Positions 22,671-60,352 of a stretch of DNA of 64,000 nt are shown piece by piece (within the stretch, counting starts at the first letter, position 1; every line of letters starts with the position of its first letter). The notes under the pieces are model-generated. The model had not been told where the DNA came from, did no database searches, and saw only the letters and a program-made list of their open reading frames with translations. The position numbers were made by a program, and so were the translations under genes. Source of the stretch: a virus; the IMG/VR virus record IMGVR_UViG_3300042563_003307, positions 62,001 to 126,000 of that record. The stretch is one strand, 5' to 3'.

Positions 22671-23213
22671 TTATAAATCTATTTTTTGTTTAGAGCCATC
22701 TGTCATACTATAAGTAATATGCAGCGGTTTTAGTGAATGTTCTCCTGAATTTAGTATCTTTAAATATTCAGAACCTTTACCTGGTTTTAAGTAGGCAACA
22801 GTCATGTGGGGCATATAATCTGGGTAGTCCGTAGTGTGCGGAAGTTCACTAAGTGATTTATTTGCATTATGAAGATTATCACCTTCCATGTCAAATTTTA
22901 GGACATCAAATTTATCATTTTCAAAAAGAGAAAGATTGTAGGCTTTGCACTCTCCGAGTTTAATCCCTTTTAATTTGTCTGCAACCTGATCAACAGTTAC
23001 TTCAGGGTGAAGTCCGTATAATAAAGTACAGTGTGGTTCATTTTCAAGACCGTAACTTTCATCAGCTTCTACTGTGAAAATATCTTCAGGTCTTATTGAT
23101 TGATGTAGAGTTGCCATTGCTGGAAAGTCAAAATATAACATTGCACAATTAAAATCATGTGTTGTTTTTATTTTTTCATTTAAGAACTCTTCGAATAGTT
23201 TAATTCTTTTCAT
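22671..23213 (-). CDS. 2H phosphoesterase with capsid-targeting-like N-terminus
   Basis: Start at 23211-23213 gives MKRIKLFEEFLNE, shared with its neighbours; the longer reading is rejected. The catalytic pairs are HCTLLYG (about residue 61) and HMTVAYL (about 134), the two HxT motifs of 2H phosphoesterases. This superfamily includes 2',5'-RNA ligase-like enzymes, and phage Acb1 that degrades cyclic-oligonucleotide signals. The N-terminus ends in LNE, a T4 gp21-type (L/I)xE cleavage site, which predicts packaging in the head. The start overlaps the upstream stop by 14 bases. Confidence 0.82.
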   Translation of the reverse strand: MKRIKLFEEFLNEKIKTTHDFNCAMLYFDFPAMATLHQSIRPEDIFTVEADESYGLENEPHCTLLYGLHPEVTVDQVADKLKGIKLGECKAYNLSLFENDKFDVLKFDMEGDNLHNANKSLSELPHTTDYPDYMPHMTVAYLKPGKGSEYLKILNSGEHSLKPLHITYSMTDGSKQKIDL

Positions 23214-23718
23214 TATTTTCTTTTTTATTAATTTCATCCATTTTTTTCATAGCCCAATCAACTCCTTCATCTCCACCCCAAATCAACCATGCAACATATC
23301 CATTGTCTTTCCACGGTTCTGATTTATGTTCTGGTGCTATTTTCGAGTTCTTTCTATGTCGATTAAATTGTGCCATTCGGGAAACTACATCTTGCGAAAG
23401 TTTTTCTCCTTTTGCCAACTGATTTGCGCGTTGCCATCCGACTGGAGTACCTGCAGTTACTTCATCACGTCCATATTGGTCTCTCCAATCCAGGGCCTTC
23501 TTTGCATTCTCCTTTGCGGCAGCAGGATAGTCATTGTAAGTATCTTCTGATTCTAAAACAACAGATTCTTGCGCGTCCTCCCAGTCCTCTTCATCGGGAT
23601 AATCTTTATCACCTGGCTTTGCAGGTTTTTCGCCGCGCTTTCTTTTAGCCCATATATTGTCCCAAAGACCCTTCTTTTTTTCGTCTAGGAACTCTTCAAA
23701 TAATTTTACTTTTTTCAT
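23200..23718 (-). CDS. CTS-tagged protein of unknown function, 172 aa
   Basis: Begins MKKVKLFEEFLDE, the same capsid-targeting-like tag. Then KGLWDNIWAKRKRGEKPAKP, a basic segment common in phage proteins. Residues 60-165 form a domain with YPAAAKENAKKALDWRDQYG, LSQDVVSRMAQFNRHR and GYVAWLIWGGDEGVDWA, a module known from many phage structural or internal proteins without assigned role. Overlaps the ATP-grasp gene by four bases. Confidence 0.72.
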   Translation of the reverse strand: MKKVKLFEEFLDEKKKGLWDNIWAKRKRGEKPAKPGDKDYPDEEDWEDAQESVVLESEDTYNDYPAAAKENAKKALDWRDQYGRDEVTAGTPVGWQRANQLAKGEKLSQDVVSRMAQFNRHRKNSKIAPEHKSEPWKDNGYVAWLIWGGDEGVDWAMKKMDEINKKENNEKN

Positions 23719-24659
23719 TCTACTTCAAATCTTTTTGGGTCAAAGTCCAGGGTTTTCTTAATCATATAGTCACTCAATTTCTCGAGCTCGGTGTTAGCCG
23801 CTGGATTTACATCACGACCGTAAAAATCATTAAATAATTGTCTGTATGCCTGAACTGTAGAATCAAATGGTACTCCCGGCTGACTGTTACTTTCAATTAT
23901 ATATAGTTTTCCAGATTTATCTTCCATAATATCAAAACAGATATATGGCAAGTCTGAGAATATTTTACCGAATTTTTCAACTAGGTCATTAAATTTCTGT
24001 GGTATTTTGGTAACGTCCTTTTTAATGTATTTAAACATCATTTGTTCGTCTCCTTTTCCTTCTCCAGATTTTGCTTTAGCATTCAATGGGTTTCTTTCCA
24101 TCCAGAAAAATGGTTTACCCTTAAATGTAATCAATCTGTGTTCGGCTGCTTTGTCAATATATTCTGAATAAACATCCAACTTCGAATGGTCTGCATCGTC
24201 CCATGATTTCTGGTCCTTAAAGATTTGAATACCAAGTCCTGAGTGTCCTTCTGCTGGTTTTCCAATTAATGGGAATCCAATTTTTAGGGCATCTTTTTCA
24301 TTATGCGCAGTTTTTGGGATGTTTTCATCACCATCAACCAACTTATGAAATTCTGCCTTGGAACCAGATTGTTTGATATGTTCTGGTAGGTTATAGACAT
24401 TTTCTTTTTTAATTAACCCTTCATCTAGGAGCTTTTGAGTTACTTTAGAATTGTATGTAAGGATTGGGTATTCTGAATTGATGTTAATGTCTTTGTAATT
24501 ATCAAGTGTTACCTGTACAAAGAAATTATCTCCGGCGAAGTCTTTATAAGACCACCATCTATGCCCACTATCAGGATTAATAGCCAAATAGATTTTATGC
24601 AAATCGGAATTGTCTTCCTTCTCTGCAATAAACTGTTCAAATAATTTAATTCTTTTCAT
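23715..24659 (-). CDS. CTS-tagged ATP-grasp (RimK-like) ligase
   Basis: 314 aa starting MKRIKLFEQFIAE; FIAE is the same ending as the capsid-targeting peptide of T4 internal proteins. ATP-grasp features: IGFPLIGKPAEGHSGLGIQIF (lysine and glycine-rich loop, about 128-148), SEYIDKAAEHRLITFKG, and CFDIMEDKSGKLYIIESNSQ (metal-binding E and N near the end). The family joins a carboxylate to an amine using ATP. Substrate unknown. Co-transcribed with two other tagged proteins. Confidence 0.82.
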   Translation of the reverse strand: MKRIKLFEQFIAEKEDNSDLHKIYLAINPDSGHRWWSYKDFAGDNFFVQVTLDNYKDININSEYPILTYNSKVTQKLLDEGLIKKENVYNLPEHIKQSGSKAEFHKLVDGDENIPKTAHNEKDALKIGFPLIGKPAEGHSGLGIQIFKDQKSWDDADHSKLDVYSEYIDKAAEHRLITFKGKPFFWMERNPLNAKAKSGEGKGDEQMMFKYIKKDVTKIPQKFNDLVEKFGKIFSDLPYICFDIMEDKSGKLYIIESNSQPGVPFDSTVQAYRQLFNDFYGRDVNPAANTELEKLSDYMIKKTLDFDPKRFEVE

Positions 24660-24671
24660 GTATTATATATC

Positions 24672-25127
24672 TTATAAATACGAAGACGAAAGTTCTTTAA
24701 GTTGTTTTAATATAGTAGGGTCTTCAATCTTATGAATCACCTTCATTCCGTCTTGTTGTCGACGGATTCCAATTGCAGTTGTTCCAGAATTAAATTTAAT
24801 TGTATGCAGTTTTGCGACCTTAGGGTCCATTTCAAAAATGCAACCCGCAAATTGGTCCTCTTGAGTTTGTAATGGGACTGAAACCCAATAAACCCGATGT
24901 GAATTCATAATCTTATCATGTTGGCTCTTTGGAAATGAAAACGAATCGTAATAGATTAAGGGTGCATTTGTTTTTACCTCAATGTTATATCCATCAATTA
25001 TCATATCTTTATCCGAATCAAAAACGTTTAGGGATTCCTCGACCTGATGTCCGGAATCCCTAAAGTGTTTTGCAACTATCTTTTCTCCTAGCATTCCTAG
25101 AAGTACTCTTTTGTAATCAACTGCCAT
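24672..25127 (-). CDS. PD-(D/E)XK nuclease-like protein, 151 aa
   Basis: GEKIVAKHFRDSG (helix with E), SDKDMIIDGYNIEVKTNAP (D ... EVK) form the nuclease core in residues 14-56. A second half with strands and FKFNSGTTAIGIRRQQDG follows. Restriction-enzyme-like fold is likely; DNA or RNA target is unknown. It starts one base after the RNA ligase stop. Confidence 0.72.
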   Translation of the reverse strand: MAVDYKRVLLGMLGEKIVAKHFRDSGHQVEESLNVFDSDKDMIIDGYNIEVKTNAPLIYYDSFSFPKSQHDKIMNSHRVYWVSVPLQTQEDQFAGCIFEMDPKVAKLHTIKFNSGTTAIGIRRQQDGMKVIHKIEDPTILKQLKELSSSYL

Positions 25128-25128
25128 A

Positions 25129-26253
25129 TCAGTGAGAATCTCCTACGTTATTCTTTTCACCATAAATCAAGTAGTCTGGATTAATTACTTTCGCAACTTT
25201 TTGTCTTTCACCAGTAATGTGCTTGATTACAATTCCTTCATGTGGGACTTTAGTACCGTCGATGAAGTTACCGAAAACCAAACCATCTTGTACCTCTTGA
25301 TTCCATAATCCTTCATAAAGAACTGTAACATGAGAGAGTTCTAGAACTTCCTCAACAATGTATTCTGTTAATTCAGGGTCCATATACTTTCCATCAATTG
25401 TTAAATCAAATGCAGCAAATCTAGTATCTTTTAAACCATATTCATAGTTCTTTTGAATTCCTGCACCATAGATTTCACCATACAAAACAAAACCAGAACC
25501 AATTTCTTCGACTGATTTTCTTTTTACAGCTCTCCAAAGTTTTTCTTTGATACCATATTCTTCGGCAGTTGTTCTCCAAACGTCAGTTGAATAAAATCCT
25601 TGAGAATCAGATCCTTTCTCACAATTATGAGAACCATAAATGTACTCGTAGTTAACCCATTCGTCAGCAATTCTTAAGAATTTTCTTACTCTGTCCCAAA
25701 GGGTCAATTTAGATTTCTTTACAATACCATAACGTGCATTTGTTCCGTGCAATTTTCTGGTGATTTGAACCTCATCCGCTTCAGTAAATAATCCAGCCAC
25801 ATTTTTCAAGTTTGGAAACTTGTAGTAGATATGGAAGTTTTGGTTATCTCTCCATTTGATTTTTCTACCAGATGCTAATTGGATTTGTTTAACTGGTGGC
25901 TCATATTTAGTGATACCTAACTCTTCCATTAAATCCTTTCCTTCTACAATAGATTTTGCTCTAATATATGTAACTGGAATGATTAAACATTCTGAATAGA
26001 CTCCACGCAATTTTACAGTTCGGACTCTTGTACCTTTTCTTAGGTAGTTTGCAACTCCCATTTTTTCAGAAAGGGCTTCAGGTATTACTGCATCTGTTGT
26101 TGCAATTACTGTTAGGGAACCTTCTCTAAATTCACCTTTCTTTGTGATGGCATTCCATCCACCTGCGATAACTAATTCGATGTTATCTGCTCCTTCGATT
26201 GCTCGAACTTCATTTATTTTTGCTACGTAGCAAACTGAATTTTGATTTTCCAT
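25129..26253 (-). CDS. RNA ligase, Rnl5/DraRnl-like, with N-terminal OB domain
   Basis: 374 aa. The N-terminal 110 residues form an OB-like domain (IEGADNIELVIAGGWNAI). The nucleotidyltransferase core follows: motif I QITRKLHGTNAR (about 163-174), motif IIIa/IV VLYGEIYG (about 257), EGIVIKHI and VAKVINPDY near the end. This order (OB first) is that of Deinococcus-type RNA ligases that seal nicks with 3'-OH and 5'-phosphate. It sits with a P-loop kinase, a repair pair. Confidence 0.85.
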   Translation of the reverse strand: MENQNSVCYVAKINEVRAIEGADNIELVIAGGWNAITKKGEFREGSLTVIATTDAVIPEALSEKMGVANYLRKGTRVRTVKLRGVYSECLIIPVTYIRAKSIVEGKDLMEELGITKYEPPVKQIQLASGRKIKWRDNQNFHIYYKFPNLKNVAGLFTEADEVQITRKLHGTNARYGIVKKSKLTLWDRVRKFLRIADEWVNYEYIYGSHNCEKGSDSQGFYSTDVWRTTAEEYGIKEKLWRAVKRKSVEEIGSGFVLYGEIYGAGIQKNYEYGLKDTRFAAFDLTIDGKYMDPELTEYIVEEVLELSHVTVLYEGLWNQEVQDGLVFGNFIDGTKVPHEGIVIKHITGERQKVAKVINPDYLIYGEKNNVGDSH

Positions 26254-35391: not shown

Positions 35392-35901
35392 TTAATCTAT
35401 GTTTTTGAATTCCTCAAACATTTTAATTCTCTGCATCTCATTAAGATAGCCAGAATTTAGTACATATTTCTTAAATACATTTATTGGTGTTTGATGTCCA
35501 TTACTTTCAAAGTGAATATTAAAATTTCCAGGATTCTTTTTAACCCATTCAATTGTCCCTTCAGGGTTAATTAAATTATCCCTCTTACCAAGAATAACAG
35601 TATGATTTGCTTTCATACTTCCAATTTGTACTGCTGGTTCCATTGAACGACTATGAACTGCTGGATTAAAAAGAATAGTTGGTATTCCAGTGATTGTTGA
35701 AAGACAATATGCAAACCATCCTCCCATTGAGCTTCCAATTAAAACGTCTGGTCTATTATTTTGTATCTTTGCTAAGATTTCATTAAACATCCCAGGATTT
35801 TTGTAGTCCATTACAGGACATTCGGCATCAAACTTTGCTAAGAACTCTGACTTTTGACTCCTAGCTTTACTTTCAAGACCATGTAAAAATAGTGCTTTCA
35901 T
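35392..35901 (-). CDS. YqiA-like alpha/beta hydrolase with C-terminal CTS-like tail
   Basis: 169 aa. FLHGLESKARSQKSEFL at the start, the nucleophile elbow VLIGSSMGGWFAY (Ser near 58) and VILGKRDNLINPEG (acid), with a histidine in ESNGHQTP, form a complete YqiA/UPF0227-type esterase. The last 14 residues, MQRIKMFEEFKNID, copy the capsid-targeting tag that stands at the N-terminus of other proteins here. The gene stops one base before the next tagged gene's end region. Function: esterase of unknown substrate. Confidence 0.78.
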   Translation of the reverse strand: MKALFLHGLESKARSQKSEFLAKFDAECPVMDYKNPGMFNEILAKIQNNRPDVLIGSSMGGWFAYCLSTITGIPTILFNPAVHSRSMEPAVQIGSMKANHTVILGKRDNLINPEGTIEWVKKNPGNFNIHFESNGHQTPINVFKKYVLNSGYLNEMQRIKMFEEFKNID

Positions 35902-35902
35902 A

Positions 35903-36493
35903 CTATACCTTTGGTTTACCTAACATTACTTTTTCATGGGCTCCTCCACCTATAGTTCGACTATACCAACCTCCGCCAGTTCCACCGTCTAGGTTTCCAA
36001 TCCAATCGACCTTTTTACCCAAGACCTTTTCTACTGTTTCTTGGTCGGTTACAATAGGTACTTGGTACTTATTAATTAAGATTTCGGCAATTTTACCAGA
36101 AACTTCTATATAATATCCAAGTTGTTTTAATTCTTTTCCTCGTCTATCCATATAATCTCTCTTAGCATCTTTGGTTCCATCATGGCCAACTCCTGAGAAT
36201 TTAAGTCCAAATCGGGTTTTTTCACCAAACATGATAACATCAAAATCATTACTGCCGTGAATATCTATTCCCTCCCAATAGTTCCAATCAGGGTCTTTAA
36301 ATACATCACTAGGTGATTGTACCTTGATATGTCCTCCAATCTCAGAGTACGCTGTACTAATAAGATTAAAGAATTCCTTTTCTAATTCTGTATCTTTAGT
36401 CGGTTTTAATATGACTGGTTTGTTTTTCTTAGGATTAAAAAGCTCTCCGCTTCTCTCTTCTATAAATTGTTCATATAGTTTAATTTTCTTCAT
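35903..36493 (-). CDS. CTS-tagged protein of unknown function, 196 aa
   Basis: Starts MKKIKLYEQFIEE, with the (L/I)xE end of a T4 capsid-targeting peptide. A module follows with GGHIKVQSPSDVFKDPDWNY and DFDVIMFGEKTRFGLKFSGV, then GHDGTKDAK, a pattern found in several phage proteins with unknown role. Glycine-rich end (GNLDGGTGGGWYSRT). First gene behind promoter 36515-36549. Confidence 0.72.
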   Translation of the reverse strand: MKKIKLYEQFIEERSGELFNPKKNKPVILKPTKDTELEKEFFNLISTAYSEIGGHIKVQSPSDVFKDPDWNYWEGIDIHGSNDFDVIMFGEKTRFGLKFSGVGHDGTKDAKRDYMDRRGKELKQLGYYIEVSGKIAEILINKYQVPIVTDQETVEKVLGKKVDWIGNLDGGTGGGWYSRTIGGGAHEKVMLGKPKV

Positions 36494-54706: not shown

Positions 54707-56239
54707 TTAAGCTAATGTTAACAAGTTACCAGTAGCAGTTCCATTAACAGTTACATTGAACTCAACGTATTGAGTTTCAGGGTGGAATCCTGCATCAACT
54801 AGAGCGAATCTAGATTTAACAGCTACTTTAGGAGCCATAGTTCCTTCAGCAATTGCTTGAACTGATTCAGCCATTAAGTAAGGCATGAATACGATACCAG
54901 GTCCGTTTCCGTCTCCTTTTCTACCAACTGCGATTGAATAATCGTACCAGTCCATTGTAGGGTCAGTATAAATGTTAATTCCAGCAACAGATCCTAATGG
55001 GTAGATAGCTCCAGCAGCTTGTGCGAAAGTATTTGCCATTGGGTTTGCAACGAAACCAGCGATTGATTGTAAAACTGTAGCAGTTTGTGGTCCACATACT
55101 GCGAAGTTACCAGCACCTCTTCTACCTCTGTTAGCGATCAAGTTAGCAGAAGCTAAGATTTGAGAAAGGATTCTTCTGTGAACAGAAGGTAAAGTTTCTC
55201 CACCAGCTAATGCAGATGCAAGAGGTAAGTTTAAGTCAAATGCATTAGCACTGAATGCTCTAGTAACGTTAAGAGCACCTAATGTTCTGATTCTTCCTAA
55301 GATGTATTGGTTAATACCTTGAGTTAATTCATTAGTTAAAACAGCTTCAACTTGAGCAACAGCATCAACTCCGAATTGTTTTAAATCTTGAACTTGTTCT
55401 CTTGTAACGGCAGCAGCAACTTGGAAAGTTTCAGCTGTAACGCTTTTAGAGAATAAAGATAATCCCATGATTTTATCTGGAGTTTGTTCTCCAGCTTCTC
55501 TTGAGAATGGAGTACCAGATGCATTAGAAGCAGCGAATCCTTTAACGTGATCCTCTAAAGCTTTAACTAATTCTACATCAGTCGCAGTACATGCATGTGT
55601 TAAACCAACAAATGCTAATTTAATATCGTCATTAACGTTAGCGTTAGCAGCGTCAATAGAATTTACTTTAAAAATCATTTTACCATCAATTCTAGAAGTT
55701 CCTATTAAAGTATAAGAACCATAAGTTCCACCAACAGCTACAATAGTATCATCAGCAAGTGCTTGAATTTCAGCTAATGCAGTTGCAAACGTACCAGTTG
55801 CAAGACCTACTTTAACATAAGTTGGAGCAGTAGTAGCAGTTACACCATTAAGACCGATTTTACCACCTTCGTAAACAAAGTCTAAGTAAGACAATAATCC
55901 CATTGGACCAGCCATAGGAACTACTGGTACTAAGTCAAGACCGATAGTTTGAGCAGCAACTTGCATTGCTAAAGGAAGTAAAGAAGGAGCTTTATCACCA
56001 GAACCTTTAGTAGTAGACATACCACCTGAGAAAGTATTACCTGGTAAAGTTGTAGCACCCATACCAAAGATGTTACCAGCAGTACCTAAAGTCATTTGAG
56101 AAGCATCTTCGTATAATTTGTGGTTGTGACAGTATTCTGACATCCAAGCTAATTTGCTTGAATCGTTGATACCTGTCGCAGATTCGATAATCGGAGCCCA
56201 CGTTGCTCTGATTTCTGCTTCATTAATTAAATTTGCCAT
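54707..56239 (-). CDS. gp23: major capsid protein gp23
   Basis: 510 aa (T4 gp23 is 521). It has the T4 head order: helical start, AMQVAAQTIGLDLVPVVPMA, FSREAGEQTPDKIMGLSLFS, TAETFQVAAAVTREQVQDLK, NRGRRGAGNFAVCGPQTATV, YDYSIAVGRKGDGNGPGIVF and SRFALVDAGFHPETQYVEFN. The conserved spacing of these blocks supports the HK97-type fold. Its most likely neighbours in the virion are the portal and protease. The codon use is the most regular in the window. Confidence 0.95.
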   Translation of the reverse strand: MANLINEAEIRATWAPIIESATGINDSSKLAWMSEYCHNHKLYEDASQMTLGTAGNIFGMGATTLPGNTFSGGMSTTKGSGDKAPSLLPLAMQVAAQTIGLDLVPVVPMAGPMGLLSYLDFVYEGGKIGLNGVTATTAPTYVKVGLATGTFATALAEIQALADDTIVAVGGTYGSYTLIGTSRIDGKMIFKVNSIDAANANVNDDIKLAFVGLTHACTATDVELVKALEDHVKGFAASNASGTPFSREAGEQTPDKIMGLSLFSKSVTAETFQVAAAVTREQVQDLKQFGVDAVAQVEAVLTNELTQGINQYILGRIRTLGALNVTRAFSANAFDLNLPLASALAGGETLPSVHRRILSQILASANLIANRGRRGAGNFAVCGPQTATVLQSIAGFVANPMANTFAQAAGAIYPLGSVAGINIYTDPTMDWYDYSIAVGRKGDGNGPGIVFMPYLMAESVQAIAEGTMAPKVAVKSRFALVDAGFHPETQYVEFNVTVNGTATGNLLTLA

Positions 56240-58390: not shown

Positions 58391-58741
58391 TTATAGACCG
58401 GCTAACGGATCCTCTTCTTCTCCACCTGCATCGCCTTCTGAATCTTTTTCAGCGTCCTTTTCTTTTTGAGCCACTTCTTCTTGATAATCGTTAAAAAATT
58501 TAACTAGAGTAAACATATCCTCTTCGGTAAACGCTGTATTTCCGTATTCTTTATAGAAATATTCTTTAAATTCTTTTTCACTTTTTGAGGACAATATAGT
58601 CCCTAAAATTTCAGTAGATTTAATTTCTTTTCCTGAGTCAAGAGTTACATCATCAACTACTACTTTTGAATCTTCTCCTGCATCAATTGCATCTTCTTGA
58701 AGAGAGCTAGTAAATTCTTCAAATGTTTTAATTATTTTCAT
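58391..58741 (-). CDS. prohead core protein (gp67/68-like) with CTS-like start
   Basis: 116 aa between portal and protease, the T4 place for core proteins gp67/68. MKIIKTFEEFTSSLQE begins with the capsid-targeting pattern and ends in LQE; the rest is helical and the C-terminus is acidic (EGDAGGEEEDPLAGL). Expected to be cut by the protease. Confidence 0.72.
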   Translation of the reverse strand: MKIIKTFEEFTSSLQEDAIDAGEDSKVVVDDVTLDSGKEIKSTEILGTILSSKSEKEFKEYFYKEYGNTAFTEEDMFTLVKFFNDYQEEVAQKEKDAEKDSEGDAGGEEEDPLAGL

Positions 58742-58762: not shown

Positions 58763-60352
58763 TTACATTCCCATCATTGGATTTTCCTCTTCTGGTTCGG
58801 CAGCTTTCTTTGCAGCAGTTCTGGCTTTATATGCATCATTAGCTGCTTTATCATCTGGAGAGAGTTTAAGGTATCTATCAACTAAGAAGTCCATATCAAA
58901 ATATGGAGTTTCTTCCATTGTCATTGGATCTGTTTTAACCAGTGAATCTTTCATCGTACTAATAAAATCAAGTCGCTTTTGCATGATTTCCATTGTCTTT
59001 AATTCAGAGAACATATTATCCTCATTAAATCTTAGTGCAATTTGAGTTCTAAATCCTGCATCCTCTTTAAATTCTGGAAATTTAAGACACATTTGAATCC
59101 AAAGGGGTTTAATCAATATCTCTTGGAATGAACTACGTAAACGATTAATAAATTTACTGAATTTAATCTCATCTCTAATCATACCATCAGCAGCTAGATT
59201 GAAATCTCCACCTCCATCTTCATACATGAATCTATTGTAAGGAATTTTTGAAACTGCTTTAAGTTTATCTGAGAAGTATTTTAATGATTCAGTGTCGCTT
59301 AATTCTGGACCTTCTCCACCCAAGGTTTCAATCTCAGGTTGTTCTCCATCCTTGCTAGGTAACCAATATTCTTTGTTAAATTGTAACATTGGTTTACCGT
59401 TAGTTGTAAGAGATGCACTATCCCAATCAAAATCTACAACTTCTTTATAGTTATTCATTAACTGAGCAAGGGATTGCTTTGCTCTTGTTTTAGATTTACC
59501 ACCAACTGGTATAATAAATTTCATTCTATAAGATGAATTTGTAACAGCCCAAATAACTCTGGTATGCTCCATAATTCTCATTAAGTTGAATGCTCTTACA
59601 AGTCGCTCAAGGTAAGAAACCCTTGATGCTGTAGTAATCGAAGAGTATGATATGTACACAATCTGTGAATCATACAATTTTCTCTGTTTAACTGGATCGT
59701 CTTTAAACTGAATCCAAACTTTTTTACCATCTTCATGGTTATATCCTGGAACCAATGTGATTGGATCAATTTCTTTAAATCCAATAACATCTGACATTTC
59801 AGGATTATAAATAATCTCAAATGATAGATAACCATCAATTAACCATTTTCTAAAAAAATACCATGCTGATTGGTCTAGATTGAATCCAAAATATTGATAG
59901 AGGTCTCTATATGCTTTATTAAGATATTTCTGCACATCTTCAGAAACTTCCATACCGATAATCTCTGGATTGGCCATGAAGTTTTTGCTATCATACACAA
60001 TTGACTCATCGCAAAGTATATCTAAGATGTCTTCAATTTCATCATGTTGTGCAAATGCTCTAAGTTCATCTCTTTTACCACGGTATGCTTGGTCAAAAAA
60101 TGGAATATTTTTACGCATTGTAGTATCAGCCATCGAAAGGGCTGCAAATGCGCCATACATGTCATCACTATCAAGACCTGTTGGGTTCATTTGGCCATAA
60201 CCAATTGCATCTTCTACCGGTCCGATTGCTTGAGATTGTCTAAGCACCAAATCGTCATAGTACATACCAAAAGAAGATAACTTCTTAAGAGTACTACTTA
60301 GGTTAAAAGGTCGCTTAGTCAATGGACCATTTCTTTGTACAAATCCTGCCAT
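58763..60352 (-). CDS. gp20: portal protein gp20
   Basis: 529 aa (T4 gp20 is 524). DEIEDILDILCDESIVYDSK, NLDQSAWYFFRKWLIDGYLS, FEIIYNPEMSDVIGFKEIDP, RMKFIIPVGGKSKTRAKQSL and NRFMYEDGGGDFNLAADGMI are the conserved order of T4-type portals. Forms the dodecameric head vertex and DNA entry channel. Confidence 0.95.
   Translation of the reverse strand: MAGFVQRNGPLTKRPFNLSSTLKKLSSFGMYYDDLVLRQSQAIGPVEDAIGYGQMNPTGLDSDDMYGAFAALSMADTTMRKNIPFFDQAYRGKRDELRAFAQHDEIEDILDILCDESIVYDSKNFMANPEIIGMEVSEDVQKYLNKAYRDLYQYFGFNLDQSAWYFFRKWLIDGYLSFEIIYNPEMSDVIGFKEIDPITLVPGYNHEDGKKVWIQFKDDPVKQRKLYDSQIVYISYSSITTASRVSYLERLVRAFNLMRIMEHTRVIWAVTNSSYRMKFIIPVGGKSKTRAKQSLAQLMNNYKEVVDFDWDSASLTTNGKPMLQFNKEYWLPSKDGEQPEIETLGGEGPELSDTESLKYFSDKLKAVSKIPYNRFMYEDGGGDFNLAADGMIRDEIKFSKFINRLRSSFQEILIKPLWIQMCLKFPEFKEDAGFRTQIALRFNEDNMFSELKTMEIMQKRLDFISTMKDSLVKTDPMTMEETPYFDMDFLVDRYLKLSPDDKAANDAYKARTAAKKAAEPEEENPMMGM

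Follow-up and report, generated by a model that had tools for sequence, protein, structure and literature searches.

Why do several enzymes of one phage begin with the same short peptide? In the stretch of DNA analyzed here (the window; 64,000 nucleotides, bases 62001–126000 of a 234,066-bp virus record), a 2H phosphoesterase, a 172-aa protein, and an ATP-grasp-like protein are encoded side by side and carry a common 13-residue tag at their N-termini (Table 1). Capsid-targeting sequences have been described in T4 and related phages, where they accompany a few cargo proteins, with demonstrated roles in anti-restriction and in modification of the host RNA polymerase; the T4 sequence is found on IPI, IPII, and IPIII (and on Alt) and is cut by gp21. 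The original prediction for this locus was that the tag is of this type, and that the tagged enzymes are packaged in the phage head, trimmed, and injected together with the DNA. We consider it very probable (roughly 85%), based on the sequence comparisons described below, that the shared start is indeed a T4-type, cleavable capsid-targeting propeptide.

Table 1. Tagged Genes, Their Tags, and Head Genes of the Window
Feature	Position in window	Strand	Remarks
2H phosphoesterase, Acb1 relative, 180 aa including tag	22671–23213	−	tag MKRIKLFEEFLNE
13-residue tag of 2H phosphoesterase	23175–23213	−	MKRIKLFEEFLNE; predicted cut after E13
172-aa protein, tagged	23200–23718	−	tag MKKVKLFEEFLDE
tag of 172-aa protein	23680–23718	−	MKKVKLFEEFLDE
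ATP-grasp-like protein, 314 aa including tag	23715–24659	−	tag MKRIKLFEQFIAE
tag of ATP-grasp-like protein	24621–24659	−	MKRIKLFEQFIAE
196-aa tagged protein, function unassigned	35903–36493	−	full tag MKKIKLYEQFIEE
tag of 196-aa protein	36455–36493	−	MKKIKLYEQFIEE
major capsid protein	54707–56239	−	phrog_138
prohead protease (Peptidase S77) fused to scaffold-like part, 640 aa	56398–58320	−	proposed tag-removing enzyme
116-aa protein, T4 gene-67 position	58391–58741	−	weaker tag form MKIIKTFEEFTSSLQE
portal protein	58763–60352	−	position and size in T4 gene order (compared with T4, PTm1)

Extent of the Shared Start

The tag, with the consensus MK-x-[IV]-K-L-F-E-x-F-[ILV]-x-E, stands at about 22 ORF starts in the record, and its conservation among these ORFs spans residues 2 to 13, with an abrupt stop at residue 14. 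The original prediction had named five tagged proteins, namely the adjacent trio, which is found where it was described on the minus strand, and the products of the ORFs at 35903 and 58391, both of which are present, the latter with the weaker form of the tag. The tag is real on all of these proteins, but the scale of tagging had been underestimated. In the window, a degenerate DNA pattern gives six matches (at most three mismatches) against 0.00 expected from 100 shuffles; over the whole record, the DNA pattern for MK[KR][IV]KL[FY]E[EQ]F matches 23 times at the same tolerance, on the coding strand in 23 of 23 cases, and gives 0 matches when read backwards. These two comparisons rule out a chance origin of the tag. 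Translation of the record yields 22 ORFs with recognizable tags, to which the weak form at 58391 can be added.

One of the 23 record matches is an odd C-terminal peptide at 35407–35436. An alpha/beta hydrolase (UPF0227) is encoded directly downstream of the 35903 protein, and its C-terminus is the tag-like MQRIKMFEEFKNID (35392–35436, minus strand); in Tenacibaculum phage pT24, a homologue of the 35903 protein is likewise followed by an esterase. Upstream of the tagged trio, also on the minus strand, lie two untagged genes, encoding a 151-aa protein in which a nuclease-like pattern was noted by eye (DKDMIIDGYNIEVKT; 24672–25127) and an RNA ligase (phrog_968; 25129–26253).

With regard to the start of the 2H phosphoesterase, its longest ORF begins eight codons further upstream, at 23237. 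However, several relatives have no upstream methionine and begin with MKRIKLFEEF, such that 23213 is the likely start. We note also that the tag positions of contig G010, which appears near-identical to this record, coincide with those of the record itself after a shift of ~21.2 kb with wrap-around, and the 234-kb record may therefore be a near-complete, circularly permuted genome.

Head Genes and the Candidate Tag-Removing Protease

The head genes of the window follow the order seen in T4 (portal, gene-67-position protein, protease, and capsid protein). The protein at 58391 had been predicted to stand in the place of a T4 core protein, and this is borne out, as it lies between the portal and the protease/scaffold genes and upstream of the major capsid protein, which is the position of T4 gene 67. 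A relative of this protein (L023:5010) begins with MKRIKLYEEFIESLKE. The neighboring protease matches Pfam S77 with 44.7 bits, and phrog_207 (head maturation protease) across residues 12–478. The N-terminal region of the major capsid protein contains the (L/I)xE sites INE7, IIE19, and LYE44, and several relatives' major capsid proteins have N-termini with such sites as well.

The tag and the protease also occur together elsewhere. Of 12 large contigs with the tag, 10 encode an S77 protease, as do 13 of 16 tested viral contigs that hold relatives of the 2H enzyme, whereas the 14 control genomes encode none; among the contigs compared, G005, G008, and G010 look near-identical to our own record and are not independent of it. 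In three contigs (G002, G003, and G004), the protein directly upstream of the S77 protease is tagged, as is the case here. The huge phage LR756508 and Maribacter phage Molly also match S77, yet their 2H relatives have no [ILV]xE leader. A second S77-like ORF (132 aa, MKTSVLKSNTVNLNGRMYTDECLEQ...) is present besides the prohead protease at ~17115–17369 of L139 (minus strand), corresponding to ~36.1–36.4 kb of the record, outside the window, with coordinates transferred via G010.

Cut-Site Signature in Related Phages

In T4, ipII and ipIII start with MKTYQEFIAE, followed by A after the cut (NC_000866). Suppressor mutagenesis of IPIII has assigned targeting mainly to residues 4 and 7 and cutting to residues 8 and 10, and T4-type proteases are known to cut after an [ILV]xE-type end (PMC9026906). 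When aligned from the cut site, these four T4 residues correspond to F/Y7, F/Y10, [ILV]11, and E13 of the tag studied here, all of which are strongly conserved.

The original prediction had proposed looking for the tag on other cargo in related phages, and such cargo is plentiful. In IMG/VR, at least 117 stretches of viral contigs match the pattern exactly, and the tagged ORFs of IMG/VR and of our own record form 87 cargo clusters (blastp with the tag removed, E 1e-4, a threshold at which remote homologues may be counted apart). The cut-site statistics were taken from the 85 mutually dissimilar clusters whose tags align without any offset. In 80% of these, residue 13 is the last residue of an [ILVM]xE motif, compared to ~1–2%, and 7% at most, at neighboring positions; A, S, or G comes next in 44 of 68 cases (65%), against a background of ~20%. 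Since the search pattern covered residues 1–10 only, this signature is an independent outcome of the search. E13 is kept in 71 of the 85 clusters, and the 14 clusters that are missing it may not be cut there. In six tagged proteins (L021:996, L029:1315, L065:6001, L077:4973, L078:2954, and L103:11695), a zinc-ribbon-like stretch (CDNCGWKWRLEDGG..CHECGHDN) takes the place of xE after the tag, and these proteins may be uncut, or cut elsewhere.

A cultured example of a comparable arrangement is Sphingomonas (Sphingobacterium) phage PAU, in which ~20 ORFs start with MKT[LI]xxLYE or close variants. Several of these starts continue with KLNE and then A or S, many of the tagged ORFs adjoin the portal, protease, and capsid genes of the phage, and gp154 is annotated as "internal capsid protein". 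A PAU protein at 146167 was considered as a homologue of the 35903 protein and dropped, as the alignment gave no support. We found no virion proteomics of a cultured relative in the literature.

As far as sequence tests can speak to it, then, the predicted targeting and cleavage is supported by the end at [ILV]xE, the small P1' residue, the match to the functional T4 residues, the association with S77, and the tag on the gene-67-position protein.

The 2H Phosphoesterase and Other Cargo

The suggestion that the 2H protein could be a signal-cleaving phosphoesterase is strengthened by its similarity to Acb1, at the level of Pfam, family profile, and structure. The protein matches Pfam Acb1 with 31.3 bits (curated cut-off 27), and the profile of its family matches Acb1 alone among solved structures (7t26, E 1e-4). 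Its two HxT motifs, H61-x-T63 and H136-x-T138, are invariant in 13 aligned relatives. The structure model has a pLDDT of 82, with low confidence at residues 1–18 (tag and linker), and the Foldseek matches are 2H enzymes, with Acb1 (7t27 and 9q2g) among the best, although the scores are alike for poxvirus cGAMP phosphodiesterase, Usb1, and Acb1.

Leaders of this enzyme family carry the cut-site motif even where they differ from the tag of our record. Among 79 2H relatives in viral contigs, [ILVM]xE ends 6–11 residues ahead of the point where conservation of the enzyme begins in 56 of 56 distinct leaders (~20% expected), which, due to shared ancestry, do not represent 56 independent events. About a dozen types can be told apart among them, such as MIKLLDLLKE, MESQEFKRMQELAGIIVEE, MKLMDIINE, and MKTLNEQISKIKRIMGLNE, and because these leader types are mixed, simple inheritance of one leader is unlikely. 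The 2H relative of LR745206 has yet another leader, MKLKKYKQFIKE followed by S; this enzyme (L172:3061–3574, minus strand, and following residues) is fused to a DEDD-type exonuclease-like domain via a linker with more IxE sites. When each contig was searched for its own Acb1-like leader on other proteins with a simple ungapped score, extra copies were found in G043 only; with a looser search, additional starts that resemble leaders and close with [ILVM]xE turned up in G040, G044, and G049, which is suggestive only.

The ATP-grasp assignment of the neighboring protein is weak, being drawn from sequence matches to several ATP-grasp Pfam families, including ATPgrasp_ST (6e-6), all below their curated cut-offs, and to phrog_2599 (2e-5), with a mean pLDDT of 43 for the structure model. 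Its tag is well maintained, with K2, I4, K5, L6, F7, E8, F10, and E13 invariant in 11 relatives. The 172-aa protein holds a KKGLWDN-type stretch that is common to many phage proteins, and the 196-aa protein has its cargo in common with 18 further tagged ORFs from viral contigs.

Pfam searches on the tagged proteins of related phages yield Tad3 (9e-22), GNAT acetyltransferases, P-loop kinase/zeta-like proteins, a BPL_N/DJ-1-like protein, and a cytidylyltransferase-like protein (nucleotidyltransferase). Going by its Pfam name, we take Tad3 to be a Thoeris inhibitor. It is present in 6 of 34 contigs, with five copies tagged and the sixth (L187) untagged, and a tagged Acb1-like gene lies within ~3 kb of the tagged Tad3 in four of the five (L188, L190, L191, and L192). 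We found no earlier report of a capsid-targeted Acb1 or Tad3 in open-access papers, a coverage that makes this a weak absence.

Proposed Mechanism and Alternative Explanations

By analogy with T4, the prohead core would recognize tag residues 1–10 during head assembly, gathering the tagged proteins, after which the S77 protease would, judging from the motif, cut after [ILV]xE13, such that the tag is lost. The mature proteins would stay with the DNA inside the head and pass into the host along with it. On this view, the phage marks ~22 proteins for loading with one general label, although most of them are unrelated to one another; some are enzymes. Once injected, the Acb1-like phosphoesterase would degrade the cyclic nucleotides that signal alarm, ahead of phage gene expression, and the tagged Tad3 of the relatives would likewise block Thoeris. 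We lean, if only somewhat, toward such an early action of the tagged cargo on host immune defenses.

Among the alternatives, the one with the greatest weight, which we nevertheless consider unlikely, retains the capsid-targeting propeptide but assigns the cargo mainly to head assembly or to filling the core, with the enzyme-like domains idle in the newly infected cell. Such a role would suit the 172-aa protein, whose domain is common to head proteins of other phages (it coincides with head-gene annotations, prohead protease and portal, in haloviruses), as well as the many cargo proteins without recognizable function, and T4 IPIII does influence head assembly (PMC9026906). It fits less well with the retention of the HxT catalytic motifs in the 2H family, with the presence of two immune-evasion families, Tad3 and Acb1, among the cargo, or with T4 itself, where Ip1, Ip2, and Ip3 target host restriction enzymes (PMC12373910).

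It is considerably less probable that the start is an uncut helix that docks the proteins not to the head but elsewhere, at a phage or host structure such as a membrane or replication site. A short amphipathic helix is conceivable for the 13 residues, but the sharp [ILV]xE end followed by A, S, or G is the cut signature of T4-type proteases, and both the tag on the gene-67-position protein and the association with S77 proteases point to the head. We give almost no credence to the shared starts being a by-product of DNA duplication or a conserved translation-start signal, with no targeting role. Several tagged genes are adjacent and overlapping; however, the amino acids of the tag are fixed while its codons vary synonymously, and the DNA upstream of the tagged ORFs is not conserved, which indicates that the constraint acts on the protein and contradicts a DNA-level duplication as the source of the tag. 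Moreover, the leaders of other lineages differ from this tag but close with the same motif.

Returning to the capsid-targeting propeptide, we find slightly better than even odds for a broader picture, in which a large, loose group of phages with T4-like heads (probably mostly of Bacteroidota) would carry a modular injected anti-immunity payload of exchangeable enzymes and inhibitors directed at nucleotide-signaling defenses, with Acb1-like proteins against CBASS, Tad3 against Thoeris, and others, loaded by lineage-specific capsid-targeting propeptides. Second-messenger immunity would then be disarmed before phage gene expression, and the tag would be a reliable finder of anti-defense genes. 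If this is true, it is common for phages to bring along preloaded proteins that act against immune signals by destroying or blocking them, which would explain the success of phages against defenses that fire soon after infection. It also provides a search rule, whereby proteins that have a short N-terminal tag in common, with (I/L/V)xE at its end, become candidates for injected effectors. In the present analysis, this rule recovered two known immune-evasion families (Acb1 and Tad3) without prior input, and ~80 further cargo clusters remain as candidates. The tag could also be used to load proteins into phages beyond the T4 group.

Comparison with Known Systems

The principle of a capsid-targeting tag with variable anti-defense cargo is already known from T-even phages (PMC12373910, PMC9026906). 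The present system resembles that of T4 in its short N-terminal MK..(F/Y)(Q/E)(E/Q)F(I/L/V)xE before unrelated cargo, and in its head gene order and T4-type S77 protease; in T4, the cargo is injected and has an anti-restriction role. It differs in that the tag is three residues longer, in that ~22 proteins are tagged in this one genome compared to the three IPs of T4, and in its cargo, which includes enzymes, an Acb1-like protein, and, in relatives, Tad3. The host group also sets it apart, being probably Bacteroidota, as inferred from relatives. Judged against the open-access literature, what appears to be new is how large the set of cargo proteins is, that it contains enzymes, and that Acb1-like and Tad3 proteins carry the tag.

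T4 encodes Acb1, the anti-CBASS 2H phosphoesterase of gene 57B (PMC9117128), with which our enzyme shares the 2H fold, the two HxT motifs, and a Pfam Acb1 match above the cut-off. In T4, the injected anti-restriction gene ipI adjoins 57B (L156 11592–12411); the T4 Acb1 protein has no capsid-targeting start, whereas all 56 distinct leaders examined in the family described here bear the predicted cleavage motif. Finally, the ejection proteins of SPN3US and phiKZ offer a parallel, in that a phage protease processes head proteins that are then ejected (PMC5694885), but their propeptides are mostly longer than 100 residues, in contrast to the one short tag shared by the proteins of this phage.
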